From positions 1 to 51,138 of IMG/VR virus record IMGVR_UViG_3300028706_000010: a DNA stretch of 51,138 nucleotides, one strand, 5' to 3'. A program made the position numbers and the translations under genes. Positions within the stretch are counted from its first letter, which is position 1; every line of letters begins with the position of its first letter. Below, one piece after another: positions 41,482-50,747 of this stretch. Origin of the DNA: a virus. The notes beneath the pieces were generated by a model that was not told the DNA's origin, made no database searches, and was given only the letters and a program-made list of their open reading frames with translations.

Positions 41482-41832
41482 TTATAACTTACAATTAGTG
41501 AAGTCTGCACTGTACCAATTGGCTTGTGCCTCTGGTGACTTATCCTTCTGCCATTTCTTAGTCTCCTCAGAGTAAGATCCGACACGAGATGAAATCTCCT
41601 TAATGACCTCTCCCATGACCTTATCACCATCATAGCCATACTTGGCAATCTCACCGTACGCAAATACAATGATATCAGCCATGGCATCGATACGACCATC
41701 GATATTATCCCCAGCCTCTAGGAACTCACCGAGCTCCTCCACAATCATAGAGATGAATCCATTACGATCGGGTTCTTGTTGGGTGATAAGACGTTCATCT
41801 GACCACTCTTTAATATCAGTGAAATTGCTCAT
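41482..41832 (-). CDS. mazG: MazG-like nucleotide pyrophosphohydrolase
   Basis: This 116-residue all-alpha protein has the MazG metal motif E32-E33-x-x-E36 (VEELGEFLEAGDN) and D49/D53 (DAMADIIVF). MazG enzymes hydrolyse NTPs or (p)ppGpp; in phages they are thought to tune host nucleotide or alarmone pools. Its gene overlaps queC by four bases, so here it may act on modified or canonical dGTP pools, a link inferred only from context. Confidence 0.85.
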   Translation of the reverse strand: MSNFTDIKEWSDERLITQQEPDRNGFISMIVEELGEFLEAGDNIDGRIDAMADIIVFAYGEIAKYGYDGDKVMGEVIKEISSRVGSYSEETKKWQKDKSPEAQANWYSADFTNCKL

Positions 41833-42638
41833 GCTGAATGATCCATAAGCACATCATGTGCATGAGTAATAGCTACGCTATAATCCACAGGTCCTGTCTC
41901 GTCTGCATATGAAACCGGATCTTCACGACCTAATTTAATAAATGCTTCCAGTCGTTCAACGGAAGAAGAGCTCTTATAATCAGAATACCATTTACCGTTA
42001 TGCATCATGGGCTTGTATGACGTGTTGGTTCTGCTGTAGACCTCGTCGAAATCCAACTCAAGAACCTTACATAGTTGTAGTCCATCAACAAGGATATCAT
42101 ACTTATCGACTTGAAGATAAGGAGTATAGTATCCAACAAGTTCATGATCCCAGTTACCAGCACGGAATGCAGCATCGTCCGCATCACGAAACTCTTGTCG
42201 ACAATCTGGGTATACTGCATGATCACCAGCATGGATTCCCATAGCGATATTAGTGGCTTCACCAGTCTTACTTACAACTGATAACGCAACTGACTGGATG
42301 ATAGATGCAAAGATTTTATTACGATTAGGGACTACAGTATCCTTCATATTCTCTTCTGCATAATGTCCTTCAGGCACCTCAGCACCACCAGTAACTAATG
42401 CAGAGTCCAATAGAGGCGCCAATCCATCTAAATTGATCTGTTGATACGACACAGGAAGGCCTAAGTCAGCAAGATAGTCAATCAGCTGTTGTGCGCGTTC
42501 TAACTCACATACATGCTTTTGCCCATAATTAAATGACATGGCTGTCACGTTCTCAGCTCCGACTTCGGCGATAGACTTCAACAATAGCGTTGAAGAATCC
42601 ATACCTCCGGATAAAGAAATTACAATATTTTTCATCAT
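41829..42638 (-). CDS. queC: QueC, preQ0 synthase without the zinc cysteines
   Basis: This 269-residue protein has the PP-loop motif SLSGGMDSSTLL (residues 8-19), FNYGQKHVCELERA and VVPNRNKIFASI, all specific to QueC, which turns 7-carboxy-7-deazaguanine into preQ0 with ATP and ammonia. The C-terminal zinc site is normally TWSCY...HCGxCxxCxxR. Here it reads TNTSYKP...WYSDYKSSSSVERLEAF: every Cys is Ser or Tyr. The fold otherwise appears complete, so the enzyme may be zinc-free or altered. The start overlaps the DUF3310 gene. Confidence 0.88.
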   Translation of the reverse strand: MMKNIVISLSGGMDSSTLLLKSIAEVGAENVTAMSFNYGQKHVCELERAQQLIDYLADLGLPVSYQQINLDGLAPLLDSALVTGGAEVPEGHYAEENMKDTVVPNRNKIFASIIQSVALSVVSKTGEATNIAMGIHAGDHAVYPDCRQEFRDADDAAFRAGNWDHELVGYYTPYLQVDKYDILVDGLQLCKVLELDFDEVYSRTNTSYKPMMHNGKWYSDYKSSSSVERLEAFIKLGREDPVSYADETGPVDYSVAITHAHDVLMDHSA

Positions 42639-42874
42639 TCACATCCTTCATTTTTAAGTTTATCAATCGAGCGCTGTAAATACCAACCGGCCTTAGTGAG
42701 GTCTTCAATCTCCTTCTGGATATTATCATACCCCTCTTCAGTTTTCTCACCAGCTCTTAGTAGATACTTCGCAACATTACCCCTAGAGAAATCAAGATCC
42801 CAATGTTCAATAACATCAATGACCTGTAACTTATCTGAGGCTTTATAATGATCTGGGTTAATTTTATCAGTCAC
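42635..42874 (-). CDS. DUF3310 (SaV-like) protein
   Basis: This 79-residue protein has the family pattern NPDHYKASDKLQVIDVIEHW, FSRGNVAKYLLRAGEK and DLTKAGWYLQRSI. DUF3310 proteins are common phage proteins of unknown function, often near nucleotide metabolism genes. A strong sigma70-like promoter inside the end of the upstream gene precedes it. Confidence 0.88.
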   Translation of the reverse strand: MTDKINPDHYKASDKLQVIDVIEHWDLDFSRGNVAKYLLRAGEKTEEGYDNIQKEIEDLTKAGWYLQRSIDKLKNEGCE

Positions 42875-43646
42875 GTTTCACCATTCTTTTAAATTCATCT
42901 ATATTATACATTATAACATCTAATTGCTCGGATGTCACGTCTGATGACACAAATTCATCAAACTTTATTTTGGGCTTATCGGATACACCGAATCCCGGTT
43001 CATATTTAGTGAGCTCCATACCAGCAGCAACCGGATTGGATGTATCAACTGAGTAGACCCAATCATAATTGTGGTATTCTACAAACTCTGCAGCATGCCA
43101 AGTGCCCAGTAAATGATGCTTCATAGAGCGCTCAATAACGCGTTCTAATGAGTTTAAAAGCTTAACTCGACACATAGCATGCTCTTGTGGTGTAGCACCG
43201 GCTTTGAATGCCCAGTTGAAACAGAACGGAATTCCGATCATTGCCAATCCGGGTACATTAACAAACTTCCTATAACATGAAATGAATTCTGGGATACTAT
43301 TACCCTGAATCACACCCATAGCATATTCAGCAAGTTCTGGATACTCGTCTAAGAATTCAAGTGACCTAGTTAAGGTAGCTTCCTTATCACCCAGAGTGTC
43401 TGGTAATACAAACACATCGGGTTTAATTATATGGAAGTATTCAAAGATTAATTTATTAGATACAGCAGAGCCCAACTCAAAGCAACTGTTGTCCATAATC
43501 TTAAACCCATCATAGTCATCGACAATGCGTTGGTATATAGGGTCTTCGATGTACCGATGCAAGAGAATGAACATATAGTCATTATATCGATCATTATCCA
43601 CCGCCAATACATGAGGCAATTCATGCGATACTAGAGGCAATCTCAT
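42867..43646 (-). CDS. dpdA: TGT/DpdA-like DNA 7-deazaguanine transglycosylase
   Basis: This 259-residue protein has the layout of a small tRNA-guanine transglycosylase: YDGFKIMDNSCFELGSAVSN (at the TGT 'DSGGF' position), DVFVLPDTLGD, a MGVIQGNS strand (TGT VQGG), GLAMIGIPF, and HLLGTWHAAEFVEYHNYDWV followed by SVDTSNP, where the Asp may be the nucleophile. Its place directly after folE (four-base overlap) and near queC, queE and queD points to DpdA, the phage enzyme that swaps guanine in DNA for preQ0. DpdA is too diverse to confirm by eye. Confidence 0.75.
   Translation of the reverse strand: MRLPLVSHELPHVLAVDNDRYNDYMFILLHRYIEDPIYQRIVDDYDGFKIMDNSCFELGSAVSNKLIFEYFHIIKPDVFVLPDTLGDKEATLTRSLEFLDEYPELAEYAMGVIQGNSIPEFISCYRKFVNVPGLAMIGIPFCFNWAFKAGATPQEHAMCRVKLLNSLERVIERSMKHHLLGTWHAAEFVEYHNYDWVYSVDTSNPVAAGMELTKYEPGFGVSDKPKIKFDEFVSSDVTSEQLDVIMYNIDEFKRMVKRD
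42910..42938 (-). promoter_or_regulatory. Sigma70-like extended -10 promoter for DUF3310-queC-mazG
   Basis: The minus strand reads GTGACA, 17 bases, TATAAT with TG before it (TGTTATAAT). It lies inside the last codons of the DpdA-like gene, so the downstream unit can be read separately from folE-dpdA. Confidence 0.8.
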
Positions 43647-44311
43647 GACCGAGTTGCACTCGAAACTTCTTTACGCAGAGGTGAATCATGTTCACCGAAC
43701 ACACCAAGACAGCATGCAGTAGATGTTGTTGAGTTTGTGTCCATAACACCACGTTGTGATACGCAAGTATGACCAGCGTCGATGATTACCATAACATCAG
43801 GCGATTCAGTGATGAATGAAATTGCATGAGCGATCTGTTGATTCAATCGTTCTTGAACTTGTGGCCGCCTAGCGAAATACTGTACAATCCGATTCAATTT
43901 AGATAAACCCAATACCTTCTTACCTGGAATGTATGCAACATGAGCAACACCGATAATAGGTCGTAAATGATGTTCACAATCAGAATACATAGTAATATTC
44001 TTCTCTAAAACAAATTCATCACCATGACAAAATTTATTATCTACTGTTGTACATTTGGGAAAATGATCAGGAACAAGCCCAGAGAAGATTTCATCGACAT
44101 ACATCTTAGCGACACGGATAGGTGTCTCTTCCAATGAATCGTCAGTTAGATCCAATCCTAGAGTTTCTAGCATTTCTTTAGTTAGTGCTGCGATTTTATC
44201 TACTTTAGAATCACGAGACTCATTGAGTAGATCAGTTGTTGGTGTGTTAACGCCTAACTTGGTTAGATGGGCATTTACCATTGTGCCTAAAGCACGGTTT
44301 GACTTCGACAT
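43643..44311 (-). CDS. folE: GTP cyclohydrolase I
   Basis: This 222-residue protein has zinc ligands C112 and H115 (YSDCEHHLRPIIGVAHVAYI) and C183 (DAGHTCVSQRGVM), plus LGLSKLNRIVQYFARRPQVQ, all FolE-specific and near E. coli numbering. It converts GTP to dihydroneopterin triphosphate, the first step toward preQ0 and folate. The leader (44312-44427) contains a pseudoknot covering its Shine-Dalgarno AAAAGGA. It shares a four-base overlap with the DpdA-like gene. Confidence 0.96.
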   Translation of the reverse strand: MSKSNRALGTMVNAHLTKLGVNTPTTDLLNESRDSKVDKIAALTKEMLETLGLDLTDDSLEETPIRVAKMYVDEIFSGLVPDHFPKCTTVDNKFCHGDEFVLEKNITMYSDCEHHLRPIIGVAHVAYIPGKKVLGLSKLNRIVQYFARRPQVQERLNQQIAHAISFITESPDVMVIIDAGHTCVSQRGVMDTNSTTSTACCLGVFGEHDSPLRKEVSSATRS

Positions 44312-44318
44312 TAATATA

Positions 44319-44407
44319 TCCTTTTCGGGTTAGTTTTATGTCTGTAGAAAAGGGGCAGGACAGACGGCTCCGGCCGGGTAAAAACCACATAGTGGTGCAA
44401 CACCCGG
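44319..44407 (-). promoter_or_regulatory. Structured folE leader: hairpin plus RBS-sequestering pseudoknot
   Basis: In transcript order: a hairpin CCGGGT/ACCCGG (44407-44402 with 44379-44374) with an inner ACCAC/GTGGT stem, then stem 1 GUCUGU (44365-44360) with ACAGAC (44345-44340). The 14-base loop of stem 1 contains CCUUUUC (44353-44347), which can pair with GAAAAGG (44326-44320), the core of the folE Shine-Dalgarno. The link (AUAAAACUAACCC, 13 nt) is A-rich, as in H-type pseudoknots including preQ1 riboswitches. The ligand, if any, is unknown; pairing was found by hand. Confidence 0.6.
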
Positions 44408-44427
44408 AAGACCTTGTTGCTTTGGTA

Positions 44428-44563: not shown

Positions 44564-44571
44564 TATTTATA
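44564..44571 (-). promoter_or_regulatory. Late-type promoter TATAAATA before the 37-aa peptide and folE
   Basis: Exact late box overlapping the last codons of the GIY-YIG gene. The start near 44557 would give a short leader and would read on through the folE pseudoknot. Confidence 0.62.
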
Positions 44572-44941
44572 TAATACTATATTTATCCTTATACTCACCC
44601 ATAAGGTAGAAGATGTGCTGCACTTCTTCATAATTCCATTTACGAGTTTCAGTAACACCAGAGAATTGTGTGGGCTCATACCAATTATGAAACCGCCTCT
44701 CATCTGACTGAATGGTCTTCATAATATTACTCTCGATATATTCAGCAGTCTCCTTATCCTTAACAACAATAGAATTCATGACTTTGATGTCCGGGAATGT
44801 CTTATTGATGGGATTGGGTTCATCAGCACCAGAATAATTCAATCTGGTCATAGCATCACGTGATCCAGTAATGCCTACCTTATATACACACTTAGGGAAA
44901 GCATCAGTTCTTTTTAGTTTGGCGAGATATACCTTATACAT
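44567..44941 (-). CDS. GIY-YIG-like protein (T5orf172/Mug113 type)
   Basis: This 124-residue protein has the opening MYKVYLAKLKRTD, then VYKVGITGSRDAMTRLNYSG, FPDIKVMNSIVVKDKETAEY and IESNIMKTIQSD. This matches the GIY-YIG subfamily seen in T5orf172 and Mug113 proteins, with the conserved Arg in SRDAMTRL and Glu in YIESNI. The start has AAGGA upstream and a perfect promoter before it. It lies between the queE and folE genes; the role is unknown. Confidence 0.75.
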   Translation of the reverse strand: MYKVYLAKLKRTDAFPKCVYKVGITGSRDAMTRLNYSGADEPNPINKTFPDIKVMNSIVVKDKETAEYIESNIMKTIQSDERRFHNWYEPTQFSGVTETRKWNYEEVQHIFYLMGEYKDKYSII

Positions 44942-45009: not shown

Positions 45010-45885
45010 TTATGCGAAACTTGCAAATAAATGCAATTGCATTTGGAAAATATAACCATGCTGTAGTGCATACCTAGCAGCGTGTTCATGATTAAGTTGA
45101 TTGGCATCCATATCAAACAATCCACCTTCCCACCAAGAGACTACCTCGTCATGAGTAGATCGTTCTTCGAGATCCAGCTTATGTGCCCCAGACCTAATAT
45201 CCTTGGCCTTCTGCGGTTCTTTATTATAGATGTTCATCGGAGAAATGTAAATATCTCTGCCGGTTTCTTTAGACCACTCATGGGCCCAATCAGGCACTGT
45301 TTGATACGGTGAATCAAATTCACGCTGATCTTCTACGATAAATTTGAGACAATCAGCCCTCGCGAGTGATTGCTTATTGGGCGACATATACTTAGTAGGT
45401 ATGTATCGCTTGAATCCAAGAGATGTATCAACCTTCTCATTACACTTAGGTGAGATCACAACAGTAGTTGAATCCGGGACATTAGGTGTTATAACACCAT
45501 TAGATTCAATCTGAGTATGACCATACTGTCCAGAGGCTGCATCTAATAGATTCCAGATCTTCTGAAGTGAGGGTTCACCACCAGTTACAATAAAGACAAT
45601 CTTATCGCCGTTGGATGCCCATTCGGGGATATCACCTTCGAAATAATTACTGATCTCTTCTTTGCATCGAGTAAGCACTTCTTCAGTGGTCATCCAATCC
45701 CCATCATCAAAGAACGCATCACACCACGAGCAACCCAAATTACACTTAGCCAATCTAACAAAAATTGCAGGAAGGCCCCTATAAGGACCCTCCCCTTGCA
45801 TTGTAAAGAATATGCTAGTGACGAATAATTTATCATCGGCATTAGAGAAGAACTTCTTTCCTACAATTTCATTTAAGCCGAACAT
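45010..45885 (-). CDS. queE: QueE, 7-carboxy-7-deazaguanine synthase
   Basis: This 291-residue radical-SAM protein has the 4Fe-4S motif C48-x3-C52-x2-C55 (KCNLGCSWCDAFFD), FFTMQGEGPYRGLPAIFVRL, and IVTGGEPSLQ (about 99-108), as in QueE. It rearranges 6-carboxytetrahydropterin. An insert of about 60 residues in the middle and a C-terminal QYALQHGYIFQMQLH-like end are normal for the large QueE type. It is directly after queD. Confidence 0.93.
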   Translation of the reverse strand: MFGLNEIVGKKFFSNADDKLFVTSIFFTMQGEGPYRGLPAIFVRLAKCNLGCSWCDAFFDDGDWMTTEEVLTRCKEEISNYFEGDIPEWASNGDKIVFIVTGGEPSLQKIWNLLDAASGQYGHTQIESNGVITPNVPDSTTVVISPKCNEKVDTSLGFKRYIPTKYMSPNKQSLARADCLKFIVEDQREFDSPYQTVPDWAHEWSKETGRDIYISPMNIYNKEPQKAKDIRSGAHKLDLEERSTHDEVVSWWEGGLFDMDANQLNHEHAARYALQHGYIFQMQLHLFASFA

Positions 45886-46455
45886 TTATAGAAACTCCCC
45901 ATCCTCACGATGTCCCTGACGGTATGCCATATTATTATCTGTCTCACGAACTTCTACACGCGAACACCAGATACGATTCGCTTCTTCTGCACCACATGAT
46001 GGCAAAAATATCGTATTCACATATTCATATAAGAAGTCAGATAATCCCTCACAACCAGTCTTTTCAACTTCGGTGATCTTAGCAAGGCCCAATTCACCAA
46101 GTCGTTTGATATCATCATAGTGTGGGTCATCGAGAGCCAATAGCAATGTATGGTCAAACCACTCTTCGAGTAATTCCTTCAGTGGACGCAAGCCACCATA
46201 ATCAAATGCCCAGTTACGTGAATCTAATTCATCAGTCTCAAATTCAAATTTGAAGCTAAATGCATATCCATGAATCTGATTGCAATGTGAATCTGCCCGC
46301 CACTGACGATATGCGCAAGGTGCAATTTGGTTATATGTTTTGGTTGAAGTGTATTTCTTTGATCTCATTCTATTCCTCAATTCATCAAATTCTTTCGCCA
46401 CACCAGCATTACGATTGACATGATTATTACCATATTCTTCGGGTGTTTTTTTCAT
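45886..46455 (-). CDS. queD: QueD, 6-carboxytetrahydropterin synthase
   Basis: From ATG 46455 (AGGAG six bases upstream) the protein has 189 residues. It contains the family His cluster (RADSHCNQIHGYAFSFKFEF), NWAFDYGGLRPLKELLEEWF, FDHTLLL, and the late Glu motif VEVRETDNNMA. It converts dihydroneopterin triphosphate to 6-carboxytetrahydropterin. The longer reading to 46677 overlaps the hydrolase gene and is not used. Stop and next start (queE) abut. Confidence 0.9.
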   Translation of the reverse strand: MKKTPEEYGNNHVNRNAGVAKEFDELRNRMRSKKYTSTKTYNQIAPCAYRQWRADSHCNQIHGYAFSFKFEFETDELDSRNWAFDYGGLRPLKELLEEWFDHTLLLALDDPHYDDIKRLGELGLAKITEVEKTGCEGLSDFLYEYVNTIFLPSCGAEEANRIWCSRVEVRETDNNMAYRQGHREDGEFL

Positions 46456-46474
46456 TATATACTCCTGCAATAAT

Positions 46475-46957
46475 TTACTTATAAAACTTATGATCATCGA
46501 TCCTAACGACAAACTGATAGCTATCAGCCCACCATGGATATACTGACGTTGAATGGTAGTGCGTAGATCCTTCTGTAAAATCTGCATCTGCTGCAAATAA
46601 TCGAACAGCATTTCTTGCCATGAGAACTGAATCTTCCCAGTCAGAAATGACTCGTATTGTATCAGACAAACCATCACAGTACCATGAGAACTGGCATTTA
46701 TTACGGATGATATGAGACCCGTTCATTTTAGCCTGATGAACAACCCCACAGACTGTATCAGGCCAACGCTTGTCTCTCACCCTGTTAAGAGTAACTAGGC
46801 CCACAGCGATTCTACCGGCGATTGACTGGTTTCTCGACTCAAAGTATATGTTGGTGGACAGGCAACGCAAATCATCGTTAGACAGCTCGTATGAAGCTCC
46901 AAATGCGCTGTATGATGATACTGCTAGAAGGGTTGATAATATAATACGCTTGATCAT
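46475..46957 (-). CDS. SleB/CwlJ-like cell wall hydrolase with signal peptide
   Basis: This 160-residue protein has a Sec-type signal MIKRIILSTLLAVSSYSAFG, then CLSTNIYFESRNQSIAGRIA, VGLVTLNRVRDKRWPDTVCG and CQFSWYCDG. This is the Hydrolase_2 family, whose members cut peptidoglycan. The E in FESRNQS is the probable catalytic residue. It is a likely endolysin exported by Sec, so it may not need a holin pore. The start overlaps the zincin stop by four bases. Confidence 0.85.
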   Translation of the reverse strand: MIKRIILSTLLAVSSYSAFGASYELSNDDLRCLSTNIYFESRNQSIAGRIAVGLVTLNRVRDKRWPDTVCGVVHQAKMNGSHIIRNKCQFSWYCDGLSDTIRVISDWEDSVLMARNAVRLFAADADFTEGSTHYHSTSVYPWWADSYQFVVRIDDHKFYK

Positions 46958-48970: not shown

Positions 48971-49046
48971 TGGTGGGCCTGGATGAATTCGAATCATCAA
49001 TCAACGAATTATGAGTTCGGTGCATTAACCGTTATGCTACAGGCCC
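48971..49046 (-). tRNA. tRNA with CAT anticodon (Met or lysidine-type Ile)
   Basis: Folds as acceptor GGGCCTG/CAGGCCC, D-arm GCAT/ATGC, anticodon stem with loop CTCATAA (anticodon CAT), and T-arm GATGA-TTCGAAT-TCATC; CCA is encoded. The first pair is G-C, so it is not an initiator tRNA. A tRNA-Ile read via lysidine cannot be told from elongator Met by eye. 76 nt. Confidence 0.9.
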
Positions 49047-50672: not shown

Positions 50673-50747
50673 TGGTGCCCTCACCAGGAGTCGAACCCGG
50701 ACCGATGGAGTAGAAATCCACTGCACTATCCATTATGCTATGAGGGC
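50673..50747 (-). tRNA. tRNA-Arg(TCT)
   Basis: Complete cloverleaf: acceptor GCCCTCA/TGAGGGC, D-arm GCAT/GTGC, anticodon stem GTGGA/TCCAT with loop TTTCTAC (anticodon TCT), T-arm CCGGG-TTCGACT-CCTGG, encoded CCA. It reads AGA, a codon used often here (many aga codons in this AT-rich genome). Confidence 0.95.

Follow-up and report, generated by a model that had tools for sequence, protein, structure and literature searches.

The window, a stretch of viral DNA of 51,138 nucleotides, resembles a fragment of a T4-like phage, with tail/baseplate-type genes (judged by eye), a ribonucleotide reductase and tRNAs. Its minus strand carries genes for 7-deazaguanine synthesis, and an earlier note folded the leader of one of them, folE, by hand into a pseudoknot that hides the ribosome-binding site. 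This locus raises the question of whether the fold is a genuine regulatory RNA and, if so, whether it belongs to a known riboswitch class. Our comparison of phage folE leaders indicates that the element is real, is kept by selection and is apparently undescribed.

The leader lies within a 7-deazaguanine operon

Along the minus strand the gene order is queD, queE, the genes for a 124-aa and a 91-aa protein, the leader, folE, the gene for a 259-aa protein, DUF3310, queC and a MazG-like protein. The main features are as follows.

45886..46677, minus strand: queD (PTPS domain), upstream of the leader; PF01242, E 1e-14
45010..45885, minus strand: queE, upstream of the leader; phrog_2076, E 6.5e-46; TIGR04322, E 3e-20, below the curated cut-off
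44567-44941, minus strand: 124-aa protein, encoded between queE and folE; unmatched in Pfam and PHROG
44320..44422, minus strand: conserved leader RNA, whole (alignments A1/A2, model R1), from the conserved AA before stem A to the P2 3' strand
43643..44311, minus strand: folE, GTP cyclohydrolase I; PF01227, E 6e-57; NF006824 above cut-off
42867..43646, minus strand: TGT/DpdA-fold protein, 259 aa, directly after folE; AlphaFold2 pLDDT 90.9
41829..42638, minus strand: queC; PF06508, E 2e-34
48974-49046 and 50676-50747, minus strand: two tRNA genes

preQ0 is the product of FolE, QueD, QueE and QueC, and insertion of the base is the task of DpdA (PMC6884629, in which riboswitches are not mentioned). 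The 259-aa protein belongs to PHROG 19058 (function unknown) and has no Pfam or NCBIfam match, while the best Foldseek PDB matches of its predicted structure are TGT 2nso and DpdA 7ui4, a DNA preQ0 insertase; on this modelled fold it is taken as a putative DpdA-type enzyme. The reading of the locus as a 7-deazaguanine operon is therefore borne out, FolE, QueD, QueE, QueC and a DpdA/TGT-fold protein all being present. Homologues of the 124-aa protein adjoin folE or dpdA in loci L003, L050, L051, L053 and L128.

The folE leader comprises two consecutive pseudoknots

The leader, read from its 5' end, is built from the following parts.

44416..44420, minus strand: stem A 5' strand GCAAC; pairs with 44397-44401 and crosses stem B
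44408..44415, minus strand: joining segment AAGGUCUU, unpaired and conserved; consensus AAGGUNUU
44402..44407, minus strand: stem B 5' strand CCGGGU; 44 compensatory events; doubles as the candidate partner of L3 (helix E)
44397..44401, minus strand: stem A 3' strand GUUGC; takes part in the stem A compensatory events
44384..44396, minus strand: hairpin C, ACCACUAUGUGGU, between the A 3' and B 3' strands
44380..44384, minus strand: conserved U tract (26-27 of 30 sequences); first base common with hairpin C
44374..44379, minus strand: stem B 3' strand ACCCGG; covaries with its partner
44368..44373, minus strand: probable stem D 5' strand, CCGGAG; CAAGG or CCAGG in relatives
44360..44365, minus strand: P1 5' strand GUCUGU; 33 compensatory events
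44354..44359, minus strand: CCUGCC, probable stem D 3' strand, after the P1 5' strand; near-invariant CCU
44347..44353, minus strand: P2 5' strand CCUUUUC, the anti-Shine-Dalgarno (anti-SD); 93.4% paired on A2; 27 events
44340..44345, minus strand: P1 3' strand ACAGAC; takes part in the P1 compensatory events
44327..44339, minus strand: L3 linker AUAAAACUAACCC, 13 nt; A132 and A133 of A2 invariant
44320..44326, minus strand: P2 3' strand GAAAAGG with the folE SD, which lies 8 nt 5' of the AUG at 44311

Every pairing listed in the earlier note (P1, P2 with its 13-nt link, and CCGGGU/ACCCGG) is present on the minus strand. The last of these had been described as a plain upstream hairpin; its pairing stands, but it is stem B of a further pseudoknot, crossed by GCAAC/GUUGC. 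The leader is thus best described, from the aligned sequences, as a 5' A/B pseudoknot enclosing hairpin C, followed by an H-type P1/P2 pseudoknot that stem D (44368-44373 with 44354-44359) probably joins. Hairpin C occurs in most members, where it varies in length and covaries. The possibility that hairpin C and the U tract form a terminator was rejected, as they lie inside stem B and the hairpin is short and mostly weak.

Conservation extends to bases outside the helices. In alignment A2, the unpaired C90, A132 and A133 are invariant, C106, C107 and U108 (the CCU) are kept in 31-32 of 32 sequences, and G18, U19 and U22 of the joining segment are kept in 25-29 of 30. The constancy of C90, A132, A133 and the CCU suggests that the RNA forms a specific tertiary structure or pocket.

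Of 30 leaders, 18 have a late promoter box of the T4 type, TATAAATA (at least 7/8), ahead of stem A at a distance of 3-17 nt, mostly 5-11, so that the RNA of these phages would begin almost exactly with stem A. Such a start would fit an RNA that folds during its synthesis. No late promoter box above background was found in the window and its nearest relatives.

Compensatory changes support both pseudoknots

Taken by itself, the window sequence makes a case for the pseudoknot that is suggestive only. When the 116-nt leader was shuffled 3000 times with its dinucleotides kept, 9 shuffles (0.3%) could form an H-type knot whose Watson-Crick stems were at least 6 and 7 bp long and 450 could form one with stems of 5 and 5, while the folding energy of the leader is unremarkable (z -0.8 to -2.0). 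Because single-sequence folding is not special, the case for the pseudoknot rests on relatives, and there the comparative evidence for the predicted fold is decisive.

Alignment A1 contains 26 leaders, and the covariance model R1 covers only the nested stems B, C and P1. Across 33 pairs in 7 helices of A1, 90% of cells are paired, compared to 39-50% when the partners are slid, and 133 cells carry double changes against a shuffled mean of 48. Alignment A2 was fitted only to B, C and P1, leaving the crossing stems untouched; nevertheless stem A is 95.6% and P2 93.4% paired in this alignment. On the FolE tree we counted 6 compensatory events for A, 44 for B, 33 for P1 and 27 for P2, where the counts for B and P1 lean upward because A2 was fitted to these stems and those for A and P2 are unaffected. 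Slid-partner controls gave 0-12 events per helix, with larger values for P2 because its strand is repetitive. The 32 distinct leaders thus show covariation in four stems (A, B, P1 and P2). The letters of P2 vary while the pairing with the SD is retained, as in CCUUUUC/GAAAAGG, CCUCUC/GAGAAGG and CCUUC/GAAGG. Covariation in homologous phage leaders was the check proposed for the earlier hand-drawn fold, and it indicates that the H-type pseudoknot burying the folE SD in its second stem is kept by selection.

The picture is more mixed for two further helices. The register-free pairing score of stem D was exceeded by only 25 of 2000 re-pairings, and long forms occur as CAAAGG/CCUUUG in L051, CAAGA/UCUUG in L044 and CAAGG/CCUUG in both L027 and D479, but when scored in rigid columns the stem is 68-77% paired with 1 compensatory event, no better than its slid versions. 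The candidate helix E would form between the B 5' strand and the end of L3, whose CCC and the following G supply the 3' strand. It is 73.6% paired, against 18-37% when slid, and shows 6 compensatory events, against 0-2, with the reservation that the changes at column 142/143 are also linked to lineage. Comparative support for the proposed competition between L3 and the upstream helix is therefore modest, and helix E may mark a two-state switch.

The leader is confined to phage folE genes

Searching viral contigs for FolE yielded 80 loci, and over half of the folE upstream sequences inspected among them share the leader. R1 recognised 38 leaders among 75 sources (window included), all immediately before folE and 37 of them at E<=1.4e-7. 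A second search with divergent FolE added L096, L097 and L129, and a diverged copy in Vibrio phage D479 (E 0.001) was the sole match among seven further named-phage folE loci. Overall, the element stands directly 5' of folE in 42 phage loci, comprising about 35 distinct sequences. When 18 whole records (17-223 kb) were searched, 12 had one strong match each (E<=4e-9), in every case at folE, and the remaining 6 had weak R1 scores or none. A gene-blind DNA pattern scan of the viral collection returned 12 matches, of which 10 are the element, all before folE; the other two, L085 and L090, were dismissed as chance. No second gene family carrying the element was found in these searches, and the ligand therefore cannot be triangulated from gene context.

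Outside phages, a DNA pattern search of GTDB genomes returned 9 candidates, none of which scored as the element with R1 at E<0.05 (the best, L180, scored 0.058), and R1 had no match in 398 Pseudomonadota genomes, a search with strict filters and no positive control genome in the set. Among cultured phages, blastn with the leaders found no carrier besides Ahp1 itself. The leader is absent where folE directly follows another gene (e.g. L026, L030 and L031). As several of the leaderless folE genes encode proteins of 74-77% identity, the leader is dispensable for pathway function. In a further group of loci (L098, L100, L104, L101, L039, L044 and L240) the downstream knot is recognisable and the 5' domain is replaced or reduced, so that either half of the leader could be the aptamer; in L101, P1 and P2 are long and the SD falls just beyond them.

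The gene content of the carriers was compared in 11 records, 8 of them recognised by R1 and 3 (L098, L100 and L102) outliers recognised by eye. All 11 contain queD, queE and a DpdA-like gene, while queC was detected in 3 (L042, L044 and D479), which amounts to 3 of the 8 recognised by R1. It was not found in the long records of Ahp1 (218 kb, complete), G008 (223 kb), G009 (202 kb) and G002 (141 kb), with the caveat that a divergent queC could escape detection and that hosts can supply enzymes. Even so, the pathway up to 7-carboxy-7-deazaguanine (CDG), not to preQ0, still appears to be the common denominator of the carriers. The records of L001 (Ahp1), L098, L100 and L015 encode FolE, QueD, QueE and a DpdA-like enzyme with no detectable QueC, suggesting that the DNA of such phages may carry CDG, or a derivative of it, instead of preQ0.

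The leader resembles known riboswitches and is assigned to none of their classes

The leader would work like riboswitches that sequester the SD, and is filed in no known class. Searches at Rfam gathering thresholds gave no match, and a search of the window leader and seven other members against 4227 Rfam covariance models at E<=10 returned only chance snoRNA matches (E 0.8-6), with no match to RF02680, RF00522 or RF01054. This is in keeping with the earlier remark that the leader lies outside the known preQ1 and THF consensus.

THF-II (the folE motif) likewise precedes folE and hides the ribosome-binding site, but it is a simple rod of two helices with a conserved internal bulge and no pseudoknot (PMC9881143), whereas the pseudoknots of the phage leader are supported by covariation and the leader has no Rfam match. 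The preQ1-I type III riboswitch (RF00522) is similar in being an H-type pseudoknot with an A-rich L3, in which a pyrimidine-rich loop pairs with an AAGG SD. However, the phage P2 is 6-7 bp long and a whole second pseudoknot lies upstream. In preQ1-I, the P1 5' strand is followed by UU (types I and III) and the P1 3' strand is preceded by UC or AC (PMC11625349), where the phage leaders have (U/C)CCU and UA, CA or UG, respectively. As these bases define the class, an A-rich link is not enough to place the phage leader in preQ1-I. In the case of preQ1-II (RF01054), the likeness is to the 5' domain of the phage leader, with an HLout-like order and a hairpin in the third loop; the preQ1-II knot holds the SD in its second stem (P3), while the phage SD lies in a separate downstream H-type knot.

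The closest resemblance in layout is to preQ1-III (RF02680), which is also about 100 nt long, consists of an HLout-type pseudoknot with an inner hairpin followed by a hairpin loop that pairs with the SD, and is linked to 7-deazaguanines. Its helices are ordered P1, P2, P3, P4 with the anti-SD loop, and P5 with the SD (PMC11625349), and the phage order (A5'-B5'-A3'-C-B3'-P1 hairpin-SD) agrees with this description. A highly diverged preQ1-III riboswitch, sharing the P1-P2-P3 HLout knot, the SD-pairing P4 loop and the pathway, might account for such agreement. The pocket argues otherwise: preQ1-III has C7-U8 after the P1 5' strand, U16-U17-A18 before P1 3' and A84-A85 at P2 3', while at the corresponding joints, as mapped by description with no preQ1-III sequence aligned, the phage leader has AAGGUNUU, a 0-1 nt link and the U tract. 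There is also no Rfam match at E<=10, and QueC is missing from most carriers examined. Furthermore, P2, which pairs the phage SD, shows strong covariation and is part of a compact H-type knot to which stem D is probably added, and the phage leader precedes folE whereas preQ1-III precedes queT in Ruminococcaceae. We therefore regard a highly diverged preQ1-III riboswitch as improbable; the leader has the preQ1-III helix order without the preQ1-III pocket.

A predicted translational switch controlling folE

The leader combines a conserved aptamer-like fold with a position from which it could control expression, as the SD lies within P2. On the basis of these comparisons, it is probably a cis-acting translational control RNA that sequesters the SD, most likely a riboswitch of an undescribed class. 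The preQ1 and THF riboswitches likewise hold the SD in an aptamer stem (PMC11625349, PMC9881143). In the mechanism we propose, a 7-deazaguanine or a pterin made in abundance by the FolE-QueD-QueE(-QueC) pathway would stabilise the knot, holding the SD in P2 so that folE translation falls (an OFF switch). When ligand is lacking, the knot would open and FolE would be made, feeding DNA modification of the DpdA type. The partial complementarity between L3 and the B 5' strand (helix E) could provide an alternative state.

Other explanations for the same conservation have to be weighed against this proposal. That the fold arose by chance in a leader conserved for other reasons would agree with the weak energy z-scores of the single sequence, but 32 distinct sequences carry compensatory changes in A, B, P1 and P2, which refute it for these four stems, and we regard it as very improbable. 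A more serious contender is that a protein (FolE itself, or another from phage or host) binds the leader as a translational operator, or that the pseudoknot is fixed and sets folE translation at a low or timed rate with no small molecule being sensed, since a regulatory protein or a constitutive translation-setting fold would be expected to leave the same sequence record. T4-like phages are known for protein-bound mRNA pseudoknots such as the gene 32 operator. An operator would also accord with the position of the element at the start of apparent late transcripts, given the TATAAATA-like box in 18 of 30 leaders, although no late promoter rises above background in the window and its nearest relatives, and with its restriction to folE, as expected of an autoregulatory operator. 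On the other hand, two linked pseudoknots and many conserved unpaired bases exceed what an operator or fixed block needs. We consider these protein-bound or fixed forms somewhat unlikely, and lean, to about the same degree as for the undescribed riboswitch class, towards a sensor of a small molecule.

For such a sensor, the candidate ligands are CDG, CPH4 and dihydroneopterin triphosphate, together with preQ0 in phages that have QueC. A preference for preQ0 is weakened by the detection of QueC in only 3 of 11 leader-bearing phage records; for the same reason neither preQ0 nor preQ1 is an obvious ligand for all carriers, and CDG or an earlier intermediate appears just as likely. A more specific proposal, which we advance tentatively and hold with less confidence than the general one, is that the leader represents a new, apparently phage-specific riboswitch class in which a double pseudoknot senses a 7-deazaguanine other than preQ1 (e.g. 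CDG) and exerts feedback control over modified-base synthesis. If confirmed, this would be a riboswitch class found so far exclusively in phages, where it would control how much hypermodified base is available to hide their DNA from restriction; one would then want to know which 7-deazaguanine it detects and why a phage should meter the pathway. The element can be tested now, because the sequenced Aeromonas phage Ahp1_CNU-2021 carries the leader.

To our knowledge, riboswitches have rarely been described in phages. In the literature searched we found no description of a folE leader in phages, and Riboswitch Scanner detected no riboswitches in pelagimyophages (PMC7029224).

A second folE leader in another phage group

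An unrelated conserved folE leader occurs in another group of phages (L151, L154, L155, L157-L159, L162, L163, L165, L166, L169, L170, L172, L174 and L175), about 80 nt before folE. It has no Rfam match and contains a 5-bp hairpin with the loop ACAACG or ACAAAG. Two pairs of this hairpin covary, and it is followed by UUCAAAA and the SD, which could be closed by AACC/GGUU or AUCC/GGAU pairing.
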